Below are positions 3,725-57,373 of a DNA stretch of 64,000 nt, in pieces (the first letter of the stretch is position 1; the number at the start of each line of letters is the position of its first letter). The notes beneath the pieces were generated by a model, which saw only the letters and a program-made list of their open reading frames with translations, did no database searches and was not told the origin of the DNA. The DNA comes from a virus, in the IMG/VR virus record IMGVR_UViG_3300019751_000003, positions 19,395 to 83,394 of that record; one strand, written 5' to 3'. The translations under genes and the position numbers were made by a program.

Positions 3725-4336
3725 TTACTTTTTCCCCTTGAACGAGATTTTCCAATAGACTCTACCGATTACTATTGGTTGGAAGTTCTGATTAACACCA
3801 AGTCCTACTCCATATACATTATCTTTTTTAGATTTGTAAAGTAAGTCTCCAGATAAAAAGTTTATTTGCTTAGAATTACCACCGACACTTACCCCACCAA
3901 ACAATTTTGGTTTATTGAGGTAAATGTCATTAGTAATGGTTGTAGTTGGTATTAATACTTGGGAGTCAAAGTTTCTACTAAATATCTTGTTTTGAGATAT
4001 TGTATCTATAATAGTAATGTAACCCAACGAATCTAACTTAAGAGTATCTTGATAGACATACTTGCTATAATAATCTTTTAAGATTTCGAGGGTATCGATT
4101 TTAGTTTTTAATACTACTGTATCTGTAACAGTCTTTGTCTCTATTCTTGTTTTGTATTTTGGTACATAAACTTTTTTTTCTACTGTTAGAGTGTCGTATC
4201 GTGTTTCGATTTTAGTAACAATCTTTTCAGTAGTAACATCGTCACCACCACCACAAGTTTTGAGTAAGACAAGTATACAGAGGACAATAATTATTAAGTT
4301 TTGGAGTTTTGTTCCAGCCTTTTTAAATAGTCCCAT
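3725..4336 (-). CDS. Membrane-anchored protein of unknown function
   Basis: The 203-residue protein has one N-terminal hydrophobic segment (about residues 13-28, LIIIVLCILVLLKTC) followed by a Gly-Gly-Gly-Asp-Asp hinge. A Thr/Lys/Asp-rich region (35-90) has alternating charged beta-strand-like repeats built on T-x-T and D-T-L motifs. The C-terminal half is beta-rich with GVSVGG and GVGLGVNQ stretches, reminiscent of outer-membrane beta-strands. The Cys at the end of the hydrophobic stretch could be a lipoprotein acceptor, but the spacing is not classical. A spanin-like or envelope role is possible but not shown. It lies between the terminase and another small membrane-protein gene. Confidence 0.6.
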   Translation of the reverse strand: MGLFKKAGTKLQNLIIIVLCILVLLKTCGGGDDVTTEKIVTKIETRYDTLTVEKKVYVPKYKTRIETKTVTDTVVLKTKIDTLEILKDYYSKYVYQDTLKLDSLGYITIIDTISQNKIFSRNFDSQVLIPTTTITNDIYLNKPKLFGGVSVGGNSKQINFLSGDLLYKSKKDNVYGVGLGVNQNFQPIVIGRVYWKISFKGKK

Positions 4337-9691: not shown

Positions 9692-12337
9692 TTAATAGAA
9701 AAGGCCAAGGATTTGATTAAGAGGTGCGAATGTACCTGTTAACTTGTATGTACCACCTTTATATAGGAATACAATACCCTCGTTTGGTACTATCTTATCT
9801 CTTCCACCAATACTCTTTAATCTTTCTAATTCCATTTTTAATTTTGTAATCTTTTTTGGGTCACCTGATTTCTGAACATCTTTGATTACTTTATCTAATT
9901 GTTTCTGAATATCACGAAGTGATTTATCAGGATTAACAGTAAGTGCTGATGACATAAATGAAAGTACTTCTGCACCAAGACCTAAAAATATATCTTCGAA
10001 TGGTTTCATATTATTCTTAGCCATTTTCGAGTGGTCTATTTTATCTGTCTTGTTTGCCCAATCTCTTGTTTTAGAATCAGAAATGTTTTTCTTATCTAAT
10101 CTAAATGATTTATCATAAAACGCCCATCGTTTTACTAACCCCATTTTAGTTTTATTATCTAATGTGGTTGGTGAGTTTTTATCTACAAAATCACTCCACC
10201 ATGCTTGATGGTAGTCTGCAACTCCATTAGAATCTTTTAGTTTAAATTCTTTTTGAAGTTTACTTACCTTCGATGAATAAATTGATTTCTTGTTTGATAA
10301 ATCTTGACTCCTCGGTATCTTAACAACTGGTGGTCCTTGGATAGTATAATTATCTTGAACATCGGCATTTACCTGCTTTATCATACCCGCTAATACTTTA
10401 GCGTCTGATGTATCAGCACCGATTGCTTTTCCATCTTCATTATATTCCATCGTTCCATGAAAGACTAATAGAGGTTGACCATATGGTATTACATTTACTG
10501 ACTCCGGCCATATAACTTCAAGGTTCATAAATTTTGAGCCATCCTTGAATATTTTACTTCTTTGCGCATCGGAGAGTTTTGAAATGGCTGATTCTAAATC
10601 TCTCATTGCGAAATTATACGCATCGGTCAACCCACCCCTATTAGCAAACTTATCGGCGACACCTTTGATGTCTAATGCGTTAAGTCCTCTGTCCTTGAGG
10701 TGTCCTTTATTTCTGGCAGCGATAATACCTCTATCTTTACGATATGATATAGCCAGAGCTTGTCCATCTGTTTTTTCTCTTGCAAATTCTAATGTACCTT
10801 CAAGAGCTTTTGATATGATTATTTTTAAATCACCAAATGTCAAATTTATTTCTGTATCGAATGGATGATTCATATGTCCATATGCTCCACCTTCCATAAT
10901 CATACTTTCATTAAATATATTTTGTGTTCCTGCATTTCCAACATAGGACACAAAGTATAATCGTTGTTTACCAACTTTTTTAGAAAGTACTTGTCCTTCT
11001 TTACCTGAGTTGTCAAGTTCTTTTTTTGCATTATCAGGTTTTAAGTAAAAGTTTCTCTTTTGTTTCATTAAAGATGCTTTTTTACTTTTTGATTTCTTTT
11101 TTGGTTTTTTCTTTTCGTCAATGGTTGGTTCGTTATCATTTCCACACTCGTGACAGATATATAAGTCATCACCACCATCTTCTATTTTCCAACTATGGTC
11201 ACATTCATCACATTCAATCTTATCACCTACGATAGCTTCAAATCGTTTTAAATCTTCTTTTAGTGAAGCGGATTTACCTTGTTGTTTTTTTGTGAGGGTT
11301 TTAGGAGTAAGGTTATCTAAATCTTTTGGTTCAGCGAATTTAACAAATTCCATACCCAATCTCAATGCAACTTTCTTAATATGTTTTGCCCATTTCCTAT
11401 AAGCAGGTCTACCAGTTATATCTTTACCATATCTCTTTTTCTGTCCATCCATAGTATCACCACTTGGAAAGAATGATACTTGATATCTACCAGGTCCATT
11501 TGGATAATGGGTGTTAAACGATTCCATTGAGTCTTCGTCCATTAAGTAGTTTACAATATCCCAACCCAAGTCCCCAACAACTTCTTCCATCTCTGCTTTA
11601 TAAGATTTCATATTACCATAGAATGCACCTGGCCCATCATCTACAATACCTTTACCACTTGTTGGAATTTGTGAAGCTTCATTGATTAAACTATTAATGT
11701 TAATTGATTGTAAAAAAGATTCCATTACGGATTCTACTGAGATTAATCTACCTGATACTAAGTTAAATATTTTTGGATTGAATTTACCATATACTTTTTT
11801 AAAGAATGATTTTCTTTGAGAATCACTCCCTCTCGACATTCCCTTACGAACATCAGTTCCACTTATATTACCAAATGATGGTGATACATAAACATACCCT
11901 TTATCATCGTACCCAGTATCAACACTTCCCTTTTTGTAAGGTAAGAAGTATTTTGAATAACCTGGACTTGTAAGTCTGCTTGCATCTTTTTTACCAACAA
12001 CAGTAATATATGCCGTTGTTTTAGATGGAAATTTTTCTATTACTTCTTTTGGTGAATATGGGTTTTTTACTTGAACAATTTTATTAGAAGGGATTTTAAA
12101 CATCGTAGTCATAACTTCTCTTTTTTCTCTGAAGTTAAATGGATGTCTTGGTCCACCTTGTTTGTTTGATGTACCTATGAATACATTATTCTTACCAAAC
12201 TTACTGACAAGATGTTCGTAAACTTTTGCGTGTCCAGAATGGAAGGGTTGAAATCTACCTGAGTAAACTACTACCTCTTTTTTTATATCTTCACTCAGTA
12301 TAGAGTCTACTACCCAATTTGTTAAAGTCTTTCCCAT
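9692..12337 (-). CDS. Fusion protein: NMN-adenylyltransferase-like, zinc ribbon and ligase-like nucleotidyltransferase
   Basis: The 881-residue protein has three recognisable parts. Residues 20-200 form an HxGH nucleotidyltransferase of NadM/cytidylyltransferase type: GRFQPFHSGH (H33, H36) and ISGTDVR (158-164). A zinc ribbon has CDEC (376-379) and CHEC (395-398). Residues 485-881 carry a covalent-nucleotidyltransferase pattern like RNA/DNA ligases: motif I KTDG (K522), a TRxG-like RNKG (542-545), motif III-like LEVIWP (606-611) and LLVFHG (623-628), motif IV EGIVF (853-857), and motif V-like YKLTG (864-868). Candidate prohead-protease sites LINE/A (220) and IME/G (482) separate the parts, suggesting packaging and processing. 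Substrates are unknown, and the ligase assignment rests on motifs only. Confidence 0.75.
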   Translation of the reverse strand: MGKTLTNWVVDSILSEDIKKEVVVYSGRFQPFHSGHAKVYEHLVSKFGKNNVFIGTSNKQGGPRHPFNFREKREVMTTMFKIPSNKIVQVKNPYSPKEVIEKFPSKTTAYITVVGKKDASRLTSPGYSKYFLPYKKGSVDTGYDDKGYVYVSPSFGNISGTDVRKGMSRGSDSQRKSFFKKVYGKFNPKIFNLVSGRLISVESVMESFLQSININSLINEASQIPTSGKGIVDDGPGAFYGNMKSYKAEMEEVVGDLGWDIVNYLMDEDSMESFNTHYPNGPGRYQVSFFPSGDTMDGQKKRYGKDITGRPAYRKWAKHIKKVALRLGMEFVKFAEPKDLDNLTPKTLTKKQQGKSASLKEDLKRFEAIVGDKIECDECDHSWKIEDGGDDLYICHECGNDNEPTIDEKKKPKKKSKSKKASLMKQKRNFYLKPDNAKKELDNSGKEGQVLSKKVGKQRLYFVSYVGNAGTQNIFNESMIMEGGAYGHMNHPFDTEINLTFGDLKIIISKALEGTLEFAREKTDGQALAISYRKDRGIIAARNKGHLKDRGLNALDIKGVADKFANRGGLTDAYNFAMRDLESAISKLSDAQRSKIFKDGSKFMNLEVIWPESVNVIPYGQPLLVFHGTMEYNEDGKAIGADTSDAKVLAGMIKQVNADVQDNYTIQGPPVVKIPRSQDLSNKKSIYSSKVSKLQKEFKLKDSNGVADYHQAWWSDFVDKNSPTTLDNKTKMGLVKRWAFYDKSFRLDKKNISDSKTRDWANKTDKIDHSKMAKNNMKPFEDIFLGLGAEVLSFMSSALTVNPDKSLRDIQKQLDKVIKDVQKSGDPKKITKLKMELERLKSIGGRDKIVPNEGIVFLYKGGTYKLTGTFAPLNQILGLFY

Positions 12338-12374: not shown

Positions 12375-15300
12375 TTATCCACAATACAAGTATCCATATA
12401 CATTTTCCATTCTACCATTAGAATCCCATGAAGAGGATATCATACACTTTGCAACTGTATATGAGCTATGTGATTGTCTTTCTTCGTAAACTGGACTTGA
12501 ACCACTAAATGAAGTTACCACCCACTCTGATGGTTGTTTCATTAGATAACCAGGCGTATCTGATGAACATAGTAAATCCCCTTTACTTACATCACCACCT
12601 TGGTTACACAATTTAAAACCAGGCAAAACAAATGAACCTGATTCATCCTGCGTTACACTATCCCCAATAGAAGCCACTTTCCAAATTTCTTTAGAACCAG
12701 TTTGACTTACAGGAATATAATCACCAAATGAATCTTTTCGTGATGCGGAGTAATATTCCTCAGGTGGGATAAGTTCGTCTGAATCACTTTCGTTATTTTT
12801 TCCTAATGCAAATCCGTCAAATCTCGGAACTAAATTTAACTCAAGTTTTTCCCACAGAATTCCTACAACATTACTATCTTTTGCAGTTGTGACTTTTTGA
12901 AGTTCATTATTTAGACCCAATTTAACTAAATCACCAGAATTAATATCTGATGTTATATCTTTTTTGTATTGGTGTCCAAGTGTTGTTTCAAATCCAGAAG
13001 GTGCACCTGGCGAGGGTGATAATTTTGAAAGTGTGTTGTGTGAAAGTATTCCATTTGAAACATAGTTGTGAACTATATCTAATTCATAATTCCAAACTTC
13101 AACTTCTTCGTCAAAAGTTTCTACACTTTTTATTTTATCAATGAATATTTTTTCACCATCGACAACATATAACTCACCACCAATTCCAAGTTCATCTATT
13201 GCAATTTCAGAATTTGGATAATCGGGATGATATAGTAAATGTGAGTTAGAACATTTTAATTCTTTGTCTGATTCTGTTTTTATCAAACTCCACCCTTTAA
13301 CTTTATTAGTAGTAATTTCATCAATAGGTGACCATCCCCATTCTTTAGTTTCAAAGTTAAATACTTTTATTATATCATCGTCTTTGGTATCTTCTATATT
13401 TATCTCACCTCTTTTAGTAATTACTTTAGTACCAGGTAATACACAACTATAACTTCCACCCGATGAAATCGCAGATGAAATAGAAGTCAATTCAGTATCA
13501 ATATCATCTTCAAGGTCTGTAAATCTTGTAGCAGCATTTTTAATAAGTCCATCAGCATCTACAAATCTTGGTACTTTTAGAATTAAACCAGTTGAGTCTA
13601 CACCAAACATGGTATTAAATGCTTTTGTTGTACTACCAGACTTGAAGGTTGCGGTATCTTCAAGAATTCCTTTAAATGTTGCAGTACCATCTTGTGCAAT
13701 TTTAAATTCAGGTGCTGAAATATATCCTGAAGAACCTAATGTAAAATCACCATAAGTATCATTTGCGGTTGCCGTTCCTTTTACTCCAATATGTGATGAA
13801 CCAATTGTCCACCCACCAATAGAACCAGCTCCTGCGGTTACTGTACCATCAATGGATAATGTAGTTCCATCAAATTCAAGTTTTGGTGAACTTGTACCAC
13901 CCATTTTAAATGTTCCTTTATCAAGACTTATTATAGAACCATTGGTAGTACTTAAATTGTTAGACCTAATTGTTCCTGTCTTAATTGAATCACCGCTAAT
14001 TGTAGTAGAACCACCACCACCCGCGAACTCGGTAACTTTAATATAATCTATAAGTGTCTTACCTGCTTTATTAGAATAGTTTACAAGAATCATTGGTGCA
14101 AATGCGTTTGTTGTAGTCCAAACTTGACCTGGGTCATCAATGTTTGGGTGAAGGCCAGAAGTTTGGTAATATCCTGCAGTACCCTTAAAGTAACCTTTGT
14201 ATATTACCCATTCACCAACCGTTGGTTTTGCATTACTTGCAACAAAGTAGTGTTGAGAACCAAAATTACCTCCCGTACCAGTAGTATTACCTGCAGCATT
14301 AATTGCGGTAAGTTTCGTACTACCATCTGTATGTAATGAAGATGAGAATGCGGTTATACCTGCGTAAATTCCACCATCTCCTGAAGCTTCAGCTCTCTGT
14401 ACTCTGACTTCCATTTCATATAATGAGTTTGGATTAAATGGCATAACAGTATTTGAACTAAGCCAGGCCTGGTCGTCACTACCAGCATTATTACCAACTA
14501 TAACTACTGGCCCAAAGAATTGTCCGTAGTCTGTATCTGTAATTGAGTTGGCCGAAGTATTCGTTCCTGAATATAAATAAAATCCTACACCTGAACCATC
14601 TAATTTTGGATTATTTGATTGTTCTATATATGTGGGTCTTATTTCTCGTGTTGCTGGGTTAAAGTCTTCAAAGTATAATGCTTGTGGTTGATTTCTACCT
14701 ACAAGTTCAACATCACCAGTAATTTTAATATTACCATTAGAACCACTAATCGATGTATTACCTCTACCAAAGAAAAATTCTTGTACTGCGAAGTCAACAC
14801 CTGAACCTGATATCAATAATGTTTTAGCCGTATTGTCCCATGCGAAATACCCTGCACCCAATGGACCTGAACCACTTCCTAAGTAGAAGTTACCATCATT
14901 ATCCATAAACGCGCTCATGTCATCGATTGTAGCTGCGGAAGTTAATGTATTATGATATCCAAGAACTTCACTATTCATTACCAACCCAGCTGGCGCAGGG
15001 AATGGAACTGCGGATAATGTATCACCTAAGAAACTAAAGTCTTGATTGTCTGCACCTTGAGCACCTGTACTTCCTTTTGCACCTGTCGAACCTGCCGAAC
15101 CTGCCGCACCCTTAGCACCTTGACCACCTTGAGCACCAGCACCACCTTGAGCACCCTTACCACCTTGAGCACCTGCCGAACCTTGTTTAGATTTAGCAAA
15201 CGACATAGTTTTTGCAATTATTACTTTTTGTGAACCACTACCACTAATTGCGTTAATTTCTAATGAACCAGAATCTTGTGTCAGACCCGTTATGGTAAAG

Positions 15301-55689: not shown

Positions 55690-56101
55690 TTAATGTTTGT
55701 ATTGGTAGTTTATCATCGGTACATAACCATATATCATCTGTACCTATTTCCATTGCGTCTGTATGGTAGTGTTCTCGTCCTCTAACTTCTTGTGTAAACA
55801 AGTAAAACATTTTAGGGTTTAAATCTAATAGTTCATCTCGTACATCTTTGTATGGACCAACAACTGATATGACTACATGAAAGTTTTTATGGTGAAGGAA
55901 TCTGGCAATAGTAGTAACCTTTCTCATATTGTTCTTACGGCCCTCTTCACTATAATCAGTATTACTAAACACCCCTCTCATAAAATCACCATCGATATGT
56001 ATTACAGGATTACCAATGGTCTTATATTCAAAGTGTTCTTTTAAAAGTTTTGCTATCGTTGTCTTACCTGCGCCGGGCTGACCATAGAACCAATATATCA
56101 T
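55664..56101 (-). CDS. APS-kinase-like P-loop kinase
   Basis: The 145-residue protein has a P-loop GQPGAGKT (residues 7-14), then HIDGDFMRGVF and TDYSEEGRKNNMRKV, the fingerprint of adenylylsulfate kinases (IDGD, FS, R-x-N). It continues with FHVVISVVGPYKDVRDELL. APS kinases phosphorylate the 3' hydroxyl of APS, but many phage and capsule-locus homologues act on other small phosphorylated molecules. I chose the start at 56101 because its ATGA overlaps the methyltransferase stop by 4 bases; a Met four codons upstream is possible. Confidence 0.78.
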   Translation of the reverse strand: MIYWFYGQPGAGKTTIAKLLKEHFEYKTIGNPVIHIDGDFMRGVFSNTDYSEEGRKNNMRKVTTIARFLHHKNFHVVISVVGPYKDVRDELLDLNPKMFYLFTQEVRGREHYHTDAMEIGTDDIWLCTDDKLPIQTLNEVLTIHR

Positions 56102-56727
56102 CCGTACAACCAATTGTCAAGTTCTTCGACTTGAATTAAACCTAAGTCTTCTTCTCGATTTGCATCCATGATATTAAACTCATAAAACGGATTGTGTCTT
56201 TGTACGATTGGTGTATCCATAAAGAAATTATTTTGAACAATACCAATACCCCAATCAGTATCTACTACGCAAACCTTTAAATCTCTTCTACTTGTTCTTA
56301 ACTCATAGATTGCTTTCCATACCGTACCATTCCATTCTCTATATTCACCATCCACCAAGTAGTCTTCTCTTGCCATAAAAGAATTTGGTGGATTACAATC
56401 GTGTAATAATATGTAACCATTTGGATTTAGATATCTAAGAGAATTGTGAATGTCTTTTTTTACCTGATAAGATTTGTGTAACCCATCTATGAATACAACA
56501 TCGAATCTATCATTAGGTCTTCTATCATCCATGAATCTAAAAAACTCATCAGATGTCATCTTATGGTCAACAGGATTTTCTTCGAACTCAACGCCAGGGT
56601 CTACACCCTCTTTGTGTTCACATTGTACTTTGTCAAAACAATGAGTAGGGTCACATACACCGATTTCAAGATACTTTTTAAAATCGTTCTCTTTTATTAG
56701 TTTGTTTATAATATCAAATCTATACAT
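56098..56727 (-). CDS. Class I SAM-dependent methyltransferase
   Basis: The 209-residue protein shows a Rossmann-type methyltransferase pattern: YLEIGVCDPTHCFDKV (motif I), VDPGVEF after beta 2, FDVVFIDGLHKSYQVKKD (motif IV) and GYILLHDCNPPN (motif post I). The FIDGLHKSYQ-HDCNPP combination resembles the Methyltransf_24-type enzymes that modify sugars or small molecules. The Met at 56727 is chosen since a longer frame would run into the tRNA-Glu gene. It heads the kinase-nucleotidyltransferase cassette and probably shares a transcript with the RNAs upstream. Confidence 0.8.
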   Translation of the reverse strand: MYRFDIINKLIKENDFKKYLEIGVCDPTHCFDKVQCEHKEGVDPGVEFEENPVDHKMTSDEFFRFMDDRRPNDRFDVVFIDGLHKSYQVKKDIHNSLRYLNPNGYILLHDCNPPNSFMAREDYLVDGEYREWNGTVWKAIYELRTSRRDLKVCVVDTDWGIGIVQNNFFMDTPIVQRHNPFYEFNIMDANREEDLGLIQVEELDNWLYG

Positions 56728-56741
56728 AATAAAATTTATTG

Positions 56742-56813
56742 TAGCCCCTAGGAGAATCGAACTCCTCTTTCCAGGATGAAAACCTGGCGTCCTAACCGAT
56801 AGACGAAGGGGCC
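56742..56813 (-). tRNA. tRNA-Glu (anticodon TTC)
   Basis: A 72-nt cloverleaf. Acceptor GGCCCCT pairs with AGGGGCT (one G-U at 1-72), the anticodon loop is TTTTCAT in a CCAGG/CCTGG stem, and a canonical T arm contains GTTCGATTC. The discriminator is A; no CCA is encoded. Confidence 0.95.
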
Positions 56814-56823
56814 AGTATGTTAG

Positions 56824-56895
56824 AGCGGAAAGGTGGAACTGCCCCACCATCTCCACATTGGTAATGTGGCGAGTTTCTTTTAACTCTTTTCCCGC
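56824..56895 (-). tRNA. tRNA-Gly-like RNA, element A (anticodon-position ACC, aberrant D and T loops)
   Basis: A 72-nt cloverleaf with exact tRNA geometry. Stems: acceptor GCGGGAA/TTTCCGC, D-type arm GAGT/ACTC, anticodon-type stem CCACA/TGTGG with loop TTACCAA, 4-nt variable loop, T-type stem GGTGG/CCACC. The D loop is TAAAAGAA (no GG) and the T loop GGCAGTT (no TTC), so canonical tertiary contacts are missing. G1-C72, C2-G71, T73 and C35-C36 match E. coli glycine identity elements. It pairs with element B, whose stems differ by compensatory changes. Confidence 0.7.
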
Positions 56896-56899
56896 TTAG

Positions 56900-56971
56900 A
56901 GCGGAAGGTTGGAACTGCCCCAACTCCTTTGTACTGGATGTACAACGACTTTCTTTTAAGTCTTCTCCCGC
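56900..56971 (-). tRNA. tRNA-Gly-like RNA, element B (anticodon-position TCC, aberrant D and T loops)
   Basis: A 72-nt cloverleaf superimposable on element A: acceptor GCGGGAG/CTTCCGC, D-type arm GACT/AGTC, anticodon-type stem TTGTA/TACAA with loop CATCCAG (position 33 is A, not T), variable loop AGGA, T-type stem GTTGG/CCAAC. The D loop TAAAAGAA and T loop GGCAGTT are identical to element A. Only 4 nt separate the two. A host-type promoter lies immediately upstream. Confidence 0.7.
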
Positions 56972-56983
56972 GATTGTTTACAC

Positions 56984-57013
56984 AATATACAAAATAAAAT
57001 TGACATGGCCAAA
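56984..57013 (-). promoter_or_regulatory. Putative host-type promoter driving the tRNA-like pair
   Basis: TTTGG (57013-57009) and TATATT (56989-56984) with 24-base spacing end 13 bases before the 5' end of element B. Transcription would start a few bases before it. Confidence 0.65.
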
Positions 57014-57020
57014 TTTTTAG

Positions 57021-57094
57021 TGGAGAATATCGGAGTCGAACCGATGACCTCTTCGGTGCAAGCGAAGCGCTCTAGCCATCTGAGCTAATTCCCC
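57021..57094 (-). tRNA. tRNA-Ala (anticodon TGC)
   Basis: A canonical 74-nt cloverleaf: acceptor GGGGAAT/ATTCTCC, D arm with GCTCAGATGGCTAGAGC, anticodon loop CTTGCAC in a CTTCG/CGAAG stem, T arm containing GGTTCGACTCC, discriminator A. It lies upstream of the promoter for the tRNA-like pair. Confidence 0.95.
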
Positions 57095-57103
57095 AATAAA
57101 GAT

Positions 57104-57373
57104 TTATCCTTTTAACAATTCCTTTTTATCCGATTCGGATACAGGAATGTCGTGACCATATTCTTTACCAAAGTTTTTAGTAAGTACCGACAACTTACCA
57201 GTTGCGGATTCTAACTTACCTAATAACTTATCGATTTCTTCTGTGTGTTGTGGATGTTCACCTATCGCAACAGGTGATTCAAAGTAGATTGATAATGTCG
57301 CCCTTGCGTCCATTATGTCTGCAGTATACTTTGCCTCTAAGGCTTGGTATAATCTTCTTGATAATTTACTCAT
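57104..57373 (-). CDS. Small helical protein of unknown function, late-type promoter
   Basis: The 89-residue protein is mostly helical: SRRLYQALEAKYTADIMDAR, then HTEEIDKLLGKLESATGKL. It is one of the few genes in the right half preceded by the ATATTTATA motif (30 bases upstream), so it may be a late or structural product. It ends 10 bases before the tRNA-Ala gene. No family is recognised. Confidence 0.55.
   Translation of the reverse strand: MSKLSRRLYQALEAKYTADIMDARATLSIYFESPVAIGEHPQHTEEIDKLLGKLESATGKLSVLTKNFGKEYGHDIPVSESDKKELLKG

Follow-up and report, generated by a model that had tools for sequence, protein, structure and literature searches.

The window analysed here, a stretch of 64,000 nucleotides (64 kb), is part of an 83,394-base IMG/VR virus record, IMGVR_UViG_3300019751_000003. 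On its minus strand lies a transfer RNA (tRNA) region in which an ordinary tRNA-Ala (UGC, 57020–57094; called by ARAGORN, Rfam 67.3 bits) is followed by a promoter-like sequence, two 72-nt elements resembling tRNA-Gly, an ordinary tRNA-Glu (UUC, 56741–56813; called by ARAGORN, Rfam 57.3 bits) and, downstream, a methyltransferase-like gene (56098–56739; 213 amino acids, PF13578, Pfam E 4.7e-10). The two elements, at 56900–56971 (first copy) and 56824–56895 (second copy), are separated by a gap of 4 nt and are the subject of this report. The first copy has the anticodon UCC and A33, and the second has the anticodon ACC; their D loop (TAAAAGAA) and T loop (GGCAGTT) are identical.

An earlier sequence-only reading of the window had described the elements as two cloverleaves with tRNA spacing. 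Folding bore this out, as did covariation in the wider family (see below). Each element alone gave a cloverleaf, with folding energies of −25.7 kcal/mol for the first copy (z −3.83) and −28.4 kcal/mol for the second (z −4.35), and 0 of 200 shuffles were as stable. Stem changes between the copies were compensatory, as that reading had it, but they were not confined to the stems it listed: the acceptor, whose outer part it had excepted, also differs, with the innermost pair changing from A-U to G-C. ARAGORN, proposed there as a check, recognised neither copy while calling both flanking tRNAs. Neither element matched Rfam at gathering level; under a permissive scan the second copy reached 23.6 bits to RF00005 (cutoff 29) and the first gave nothing.

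Homologues were sought in viral sequences, and the same RNA was found in 34 other contigs. A first IMG/VR search, with a pattern of D loop plus T arm, retrieved 15 contigs beyond the window's own record with a full 7-bp acceptor, all sharing the window's 48-nt spacing; among matches without the full acceptor, only one had this spacing. Further sequence patterns enlarged the set, and a covariance model (R1) was built from 22 sequences; the window copies score 97.8 (first) and 94.9 (second) bits. The model yielded 63 copies, 42 of them distinct, in 35 contigs (the window and 34 other uncultivated-virus contigs). These contigs are mostly fragments, with several of 166–187 kb, and carry usually two copies, sometimes one or three, within ordinary phage tRNA arrays.

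As a negative control, 1.03 Mb of viral sequence was searched with the model at E ≤ 0.001, with no match; it comprised 119 of the unrelated contigs that made up most of what a 16-base pattern for divergent copies had retrieved. When 50,697 phage records were compared with the element by BLASTN, nothing beyond short chance matches emerged, and an exact pattern had no match in GTDB genomes. Model R1 found no copy in 395 Bacteroidota genomes, which is weak evidence from a filtered search that scored 12 first-look candidates per genome and had no positive control. Two patterns designed for host tRNA-Gly(UCC) had no match. In two huge uncultured phages the matches proved to be ordinary tRNA-Gly, save for one weak match. 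Since tRNA finders miss these elements, other phage tRNA arrays may contain similar RNAs that have gone unnoticed.

The cloverleaf is under selection. Among the 42 distinct sequences 98.4% of cells were paired, and two-sided changes occurred in 12 of 24 pairs; in the anticodon stem, counting 32-38, all six pairs covary. The covariation score of 0.483 compares with 0.183 for shuffled alignments and at most 0.126 with partners slid. RNAalifold gave the identical cloverleaf from the alignment, which is model-fitted and gap-free, and the family keeps the 7/4-5/5-6/5 dimensions with tRNA spacing. Stem decay in related phages, named beforehand as an observation that would refute the earlier reading, was looked for in these homologues and not seen.

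Which positions are kept, and which are lost, was judged from 40 distinct copies and 99 distinct ordinary tRNAs of the same contigs. The bacterial glycine identity elements are G1-C72, C2-G71, U73, C35 and C36 (PMC9976931); all are fixed in 40/40 copies, so that the glycine identity read from the window extends to the family. G3-C70 and A37 are equally invariant, as are A8, U14, A18, G19, A21, G55 and C56, and G54 and G58 are each found in 39/40. G10 and G45 are also invariant, and G10-C25 stands with G45 as in tRNA-Gly(UCC); the tRNA-Gly consensus includes a G10-Y25:G45 triple (PMC9976931). Position 33, by contrast, is A in 22 copies, U in 17 and G in one, and position 34 is U in 32 and A in eight. 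The ordinary tRNAs have U33 in 99/99, U8 in 98/99 and a D-loop GG in 97/99, with UUCRA at 54–58 in at least 89/99 (arm extraction misplaces some of the remainder). The family thus lacks several canonical elongator features, namely U8, G18, T54-U55 and, in all but 17 of the 40 copies, U33. Because the identity set is invariant while these are gone, contacts of glycyl-tRNA synthetase appear frozen and several features needed by the ribosome lost.

On the loops the sequence-only reading needs amendment. It had GG18-19 and TTC54-56 both absent; G18, T54 and U55 are indeed lost, but G19 and C56 are present without exception. The elbow pair G19-C56 may therefore survive, as suggested by the persistence of both bases, which, being invariant, cannot covary. 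The D and T loops are, as it noted, the same in both window copies, but positions 15–17, 59 and 60 vary across the family, and the most divergent copies approach canonical D and T loops.

Such copies bear on origin. L048:5445–5516, the exception in the family, clears the Rfam threshold (46.7 bits). Its T loop (TTCAAAT) is normal, but its anticodon loop (CATTCCAG) has 8 nt, as in +1 frameshift suppressor tRNAs; this tRNA-Gly(UCC)-like copy may stand midway from the ordinary tRNA to the altered RNA. The T loop is TGCGATT in L041:4964–5035, and GGCGGCT or GGCAGAA in others. Since intermediate copies have near-normal loops, and one a normal T loop, the RNA is most simply read as a descendant of tRNA-Gly(UCC). 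An ordinary tRNA-Gly(UCC) is missing from most contigs, while L084 and L085 have one alongside the odd one; ordinary tRNA-Gly(GCC) occurs in many other contigs, often directly after the second copy.

The promoter-like sequence between tRNA-Ala and the first copy consists of a −33 box, TTTG (57010–57013, minus strand), 20 nt from a −7 box, TATATTG (56983–56989, minus strand), which starts 18 nt before the first copy; the −7 box, from a motif scan, is a consensus match only, and 11 other distinct copies have it at the corresponding position. TTTG/TAnnTTTG is a Bacteroidota-type promoter motif. We scanned for TT[TG][GC], 16–23 nt, then TAnnTT[TG] ending no more than 16 nt before the gene. It was present at 12/43 distinct copies, compared with 1.9% of random positions and 6/124 ordinary tRNAs, each of the six a tRNA-Leu. 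Most of the copies that lack it are second copies or lie close behind another gene. First copies in many phages thus seem to have their own promoter-like sequence. By terminase, which has a T4-like Gp20 neighbour, the closest sequenced isolates are Flavobacterium phages of the genus Immutovirus (57.9% identity); Microcystis phage Mel-JY01 has 57.5% identity. The Immutovirus terminase match and the promoters together indicate that the phages carrying the RNA probably infect Bacteroidota. Flavobacterium phage immuto, the nearest isolate by terminase, lacks any match to the element, and the search for tRNAs in it yielded only three.

We consider it likely that the RNA is kept out of ribosomal decoding. 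U33 is lost in 23/40 copies and kept in every ordinary tRNA compared, and the family includes copies with A34 (8/40), giving the anticodon ACC, which tRNA-Gly genes are described as universally lacking (PMC8007984). The strong EF-Tu pairs, G49-U65 and G51-C63 (PMC4052509), are absent in 40/40 copies; G49-U65 is present in 7/7 phage tRNA-Gly(GCC). Somewhat less firmly, but still probably, CCA would be added and the RNA charged by the host glycyl-tRNA synthetase. Taking the two together, and leaving its use aside, the balance tips slightly in favour of a tRNA-Gly that is charged and excluded from translation. The sequence-only reading had suggested charged non-translational glycine tRNAs or decoys, and the invariant identity set beside the lost U33, U8, G18 and T54-U55 supports it in part. 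If the RNA is charged, the virus would be diverting glycine, or presenting glycyl-tRNA as bait, with no contribution to translation.

Cell-wall synthesis in staphylococci is known to use non-proteinogenic tRNAs; the titles and abstracts of the open-licence literature searched name no such phage tRNA-like or non-canonical tRNA-Gly RNA, and we found no phage family of them there. The staphylococcal tRNA-Gly(UCC) isoacceptors are charged, non-proteinogenic, feed FemXAB cell-wall synthesis and are thought to escape EF-Tu (PMC8007984, PMC4052509). Like them, the phage RNA is a glycine isoacceptor with identity kept, G18 lost and the T loop altered, and the pairing of an ordinary with an odd tRNA-Gly(UCC) in L084 and L085 resembles the staphylococcal division of labour. 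Unlike them, it is phage-borne and has A18 with G19 kept and a GGCAG T loop; the staphylococcal loops hold other bases and are characterised by loss of GG at 18-19. In the phage RNA, moreover, U33 and even anticodon base 34 vary. T-stem pairs are G49-C65/U51-A63 rather than the staphylococcal A49-U65/A51-U63, with the strong EF-Tu pairs missing also from two ordinary phage tRNA-Gly(UCC). The staphylococcal parallel drawn from the window alone therefore holds for the kind of change and not for the consumer: no FemXAB was found with the phage RNA in 24 element-bearing contigs, many of them fragments. The elements share the cloverleaf dimensions, acceptor, U73, C35-C36 and G10-C25 with G45 of RF00005 and bacterial tRNA-Gly(UCC), and differ in U8, U33, G18, T54-U55 and, in the window, a score below gathering.

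As to use, we tentatively propose glycyl-tRNA decoys. A phage-borne, non-proteinogenic tRNA-Gly derived from tRNA-Gly(UCC) would be charged by the host glycyl-tRNA synthetase after CCA addition, and the glycyl-RNA, barred from the ribosome, would be sacrificed to defence effectors that attack the acceptor end of tRNA-Gly. Candidate attackers are glycyl-tRNA-acetylating GNAT toxins and toxSAS pyrophosphorylases. Because it would not reach the ribosome, a damaged decoy could not jam phage translation. TacT requires U73 and G71 on glycyl-tRNA (PMC9976931), and FaRel2, a toxSAS, reads G1-C72, C2-G71, G4-C69 and Pu5-Py68 (PMC11559606). These acceptor determinants are largely present in the family (n = 42), with pairs 1 and 2 invariant, Pu5-Py68 in 42/42 and G4-C69 in 32/42. 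That C35-C36-A37 never varies points to a need for charging, which in turn suggests a GNAT-type target or a glycine donor rather than an acceptor-only decoy. If true, the phages would counter defences with a substrate decoy, a different strategy from the known one, in which translating tRNAs replace cleaved ones, as with T5 tRNA-Tyr versus retron-Eco7 (PMC11555353). The phage tRNA array and own promoter are shared with such ordinary anti-defence tRNAs; those translate, whereas the tRNA-Gly-like RNAs seem unable to.

Several points weigh against a charged decoy excluded from translation. Because the family sequences share ancestry, the copies do not count as independent observations. U33 persists, together with anticodon UCC or ACC, in 17 of 40 copies. 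G49-U65 and G51-C63 are also missing from two ordinary phage tRNA-Gly(UCC), which limits the weight of the EF-Tu comparison. No defence system was linked to the RNA, and searches of element-bearing contigs for FemAB, PF13480 and Acetyltransf_1 found no enzyme using the glycine.

Two alternative uses have to be considered. The RNA could supply glycine to reactions outside the ribosome, as the staphylococcal isoacceptors do in building cell-wall bridges, through a host enzyme or an unrecognised phage one. The D- and T-loop change is of the same class as in Staphylococcus and affects the same UCC isoacceptor; against this, the 24 contigs had no FemAB match over cutoff and no PF13480 match, which leaves a phage donor pathway unsupported, and the one Acetyltransf_1 (GNAT) match was in 1/26 element-bearing contigs. 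We hold a donor role to be unlikely and weakly favour the decoy over it. An uncharged structural RNA is likewise doubtful. It might compete for or soak up glycyl-tRNA synthetase or the enzymes that process or modify tRNAs, or it might mark a processing site between transcripts, and the own promoter, the tight tandem spacing and the preserved tRNA fold would suit such a role; yet fixed U73, C35, C36 and A37 would be needless for a mere processing signal.

We find it rather improbable that the elements are glycine tRNAs active in translation despite unusual loops, as some organelle tRNAs are. UCC copies would read GGA and ACC copies GGU, and these are the main glycine codons of the window's ORFs (open reading frames; GGU 917, GGA 389); the scarcity of ordinary tRNA-Gly(UCC) among the contigs and the copies with U33 point the same way. 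Against these stand the loss of U33 from most copies when no ordinary tRNA lacks it, the loss of U8, G18 and T54-U55, the additional ordinary tRNA-Gly(UCC) of L084 and L085, and the reported universal absence of ACC from tRNA-Gly. Degenerating tRNA pseudogenes might escape ARAGORN and Rfam as these elements do, but compensatory changes preserving stems in 42 distinct sequences, fixed loop bases and the retention of two copies by most contigs make this explanation scarcely tenable.

Other features of the region recur among the contigs. Upstream of the tRNA region, a small protein gene (57104–57373, minus strand; 89 amino acids), noted by ORF comparison, gave no Pfam match; ORFs resembling it precede the tRNA-like copies in L003, L011, L014, L019, L043 and L083. 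Also beside the tRNA region is a short SET-domain protein, unusual for a phage (57422–57721; 99 amino acids, PF00856, E 5.4e-11), with similar ORFs in L041 and L083. An ORF of 54–56 amino acids follows soon after the first tRNA-like copy in L006 (~12416), L011, L014, L026, L037 and L085 (~600 nt in L085). In several phages it resembles, by eye, a small acidic lipoprotein with a signal peptide and a lipobox such as AAC or VAC.

The tRNA-like copies often have between them another structured RNA, unrelated to them and ~55–120 nt long, which was not noticed in the window. It has a covarying closing stem, TTRAAG, a hairpin with loop (G/A)ATAARRCCG and then ACCGG, and a CCG/CGG pseudoknot may form; RNAalifold showed two-sided changes in 7/13 pairs, in the closing stem. 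It was seen at L003:~10085–10175, L014:~12643–12718, L026:~3882–3955 and L006:~12722–12795, in L037, L041, L048 (two copies) and L083, and beyond tRNA arrays in L311, L313–L315 and L317–L319. In the loci scanned, it reached the gathering score of no Rfam family. L019:74–135 (minus strand), which lies in the same tRNA region on a contig of 186 kb, matched Rfam RF02979, the freshwater-1 RNA, at 74.3 bits (cutoff 72), which ties this motif of unknown function to these phages.
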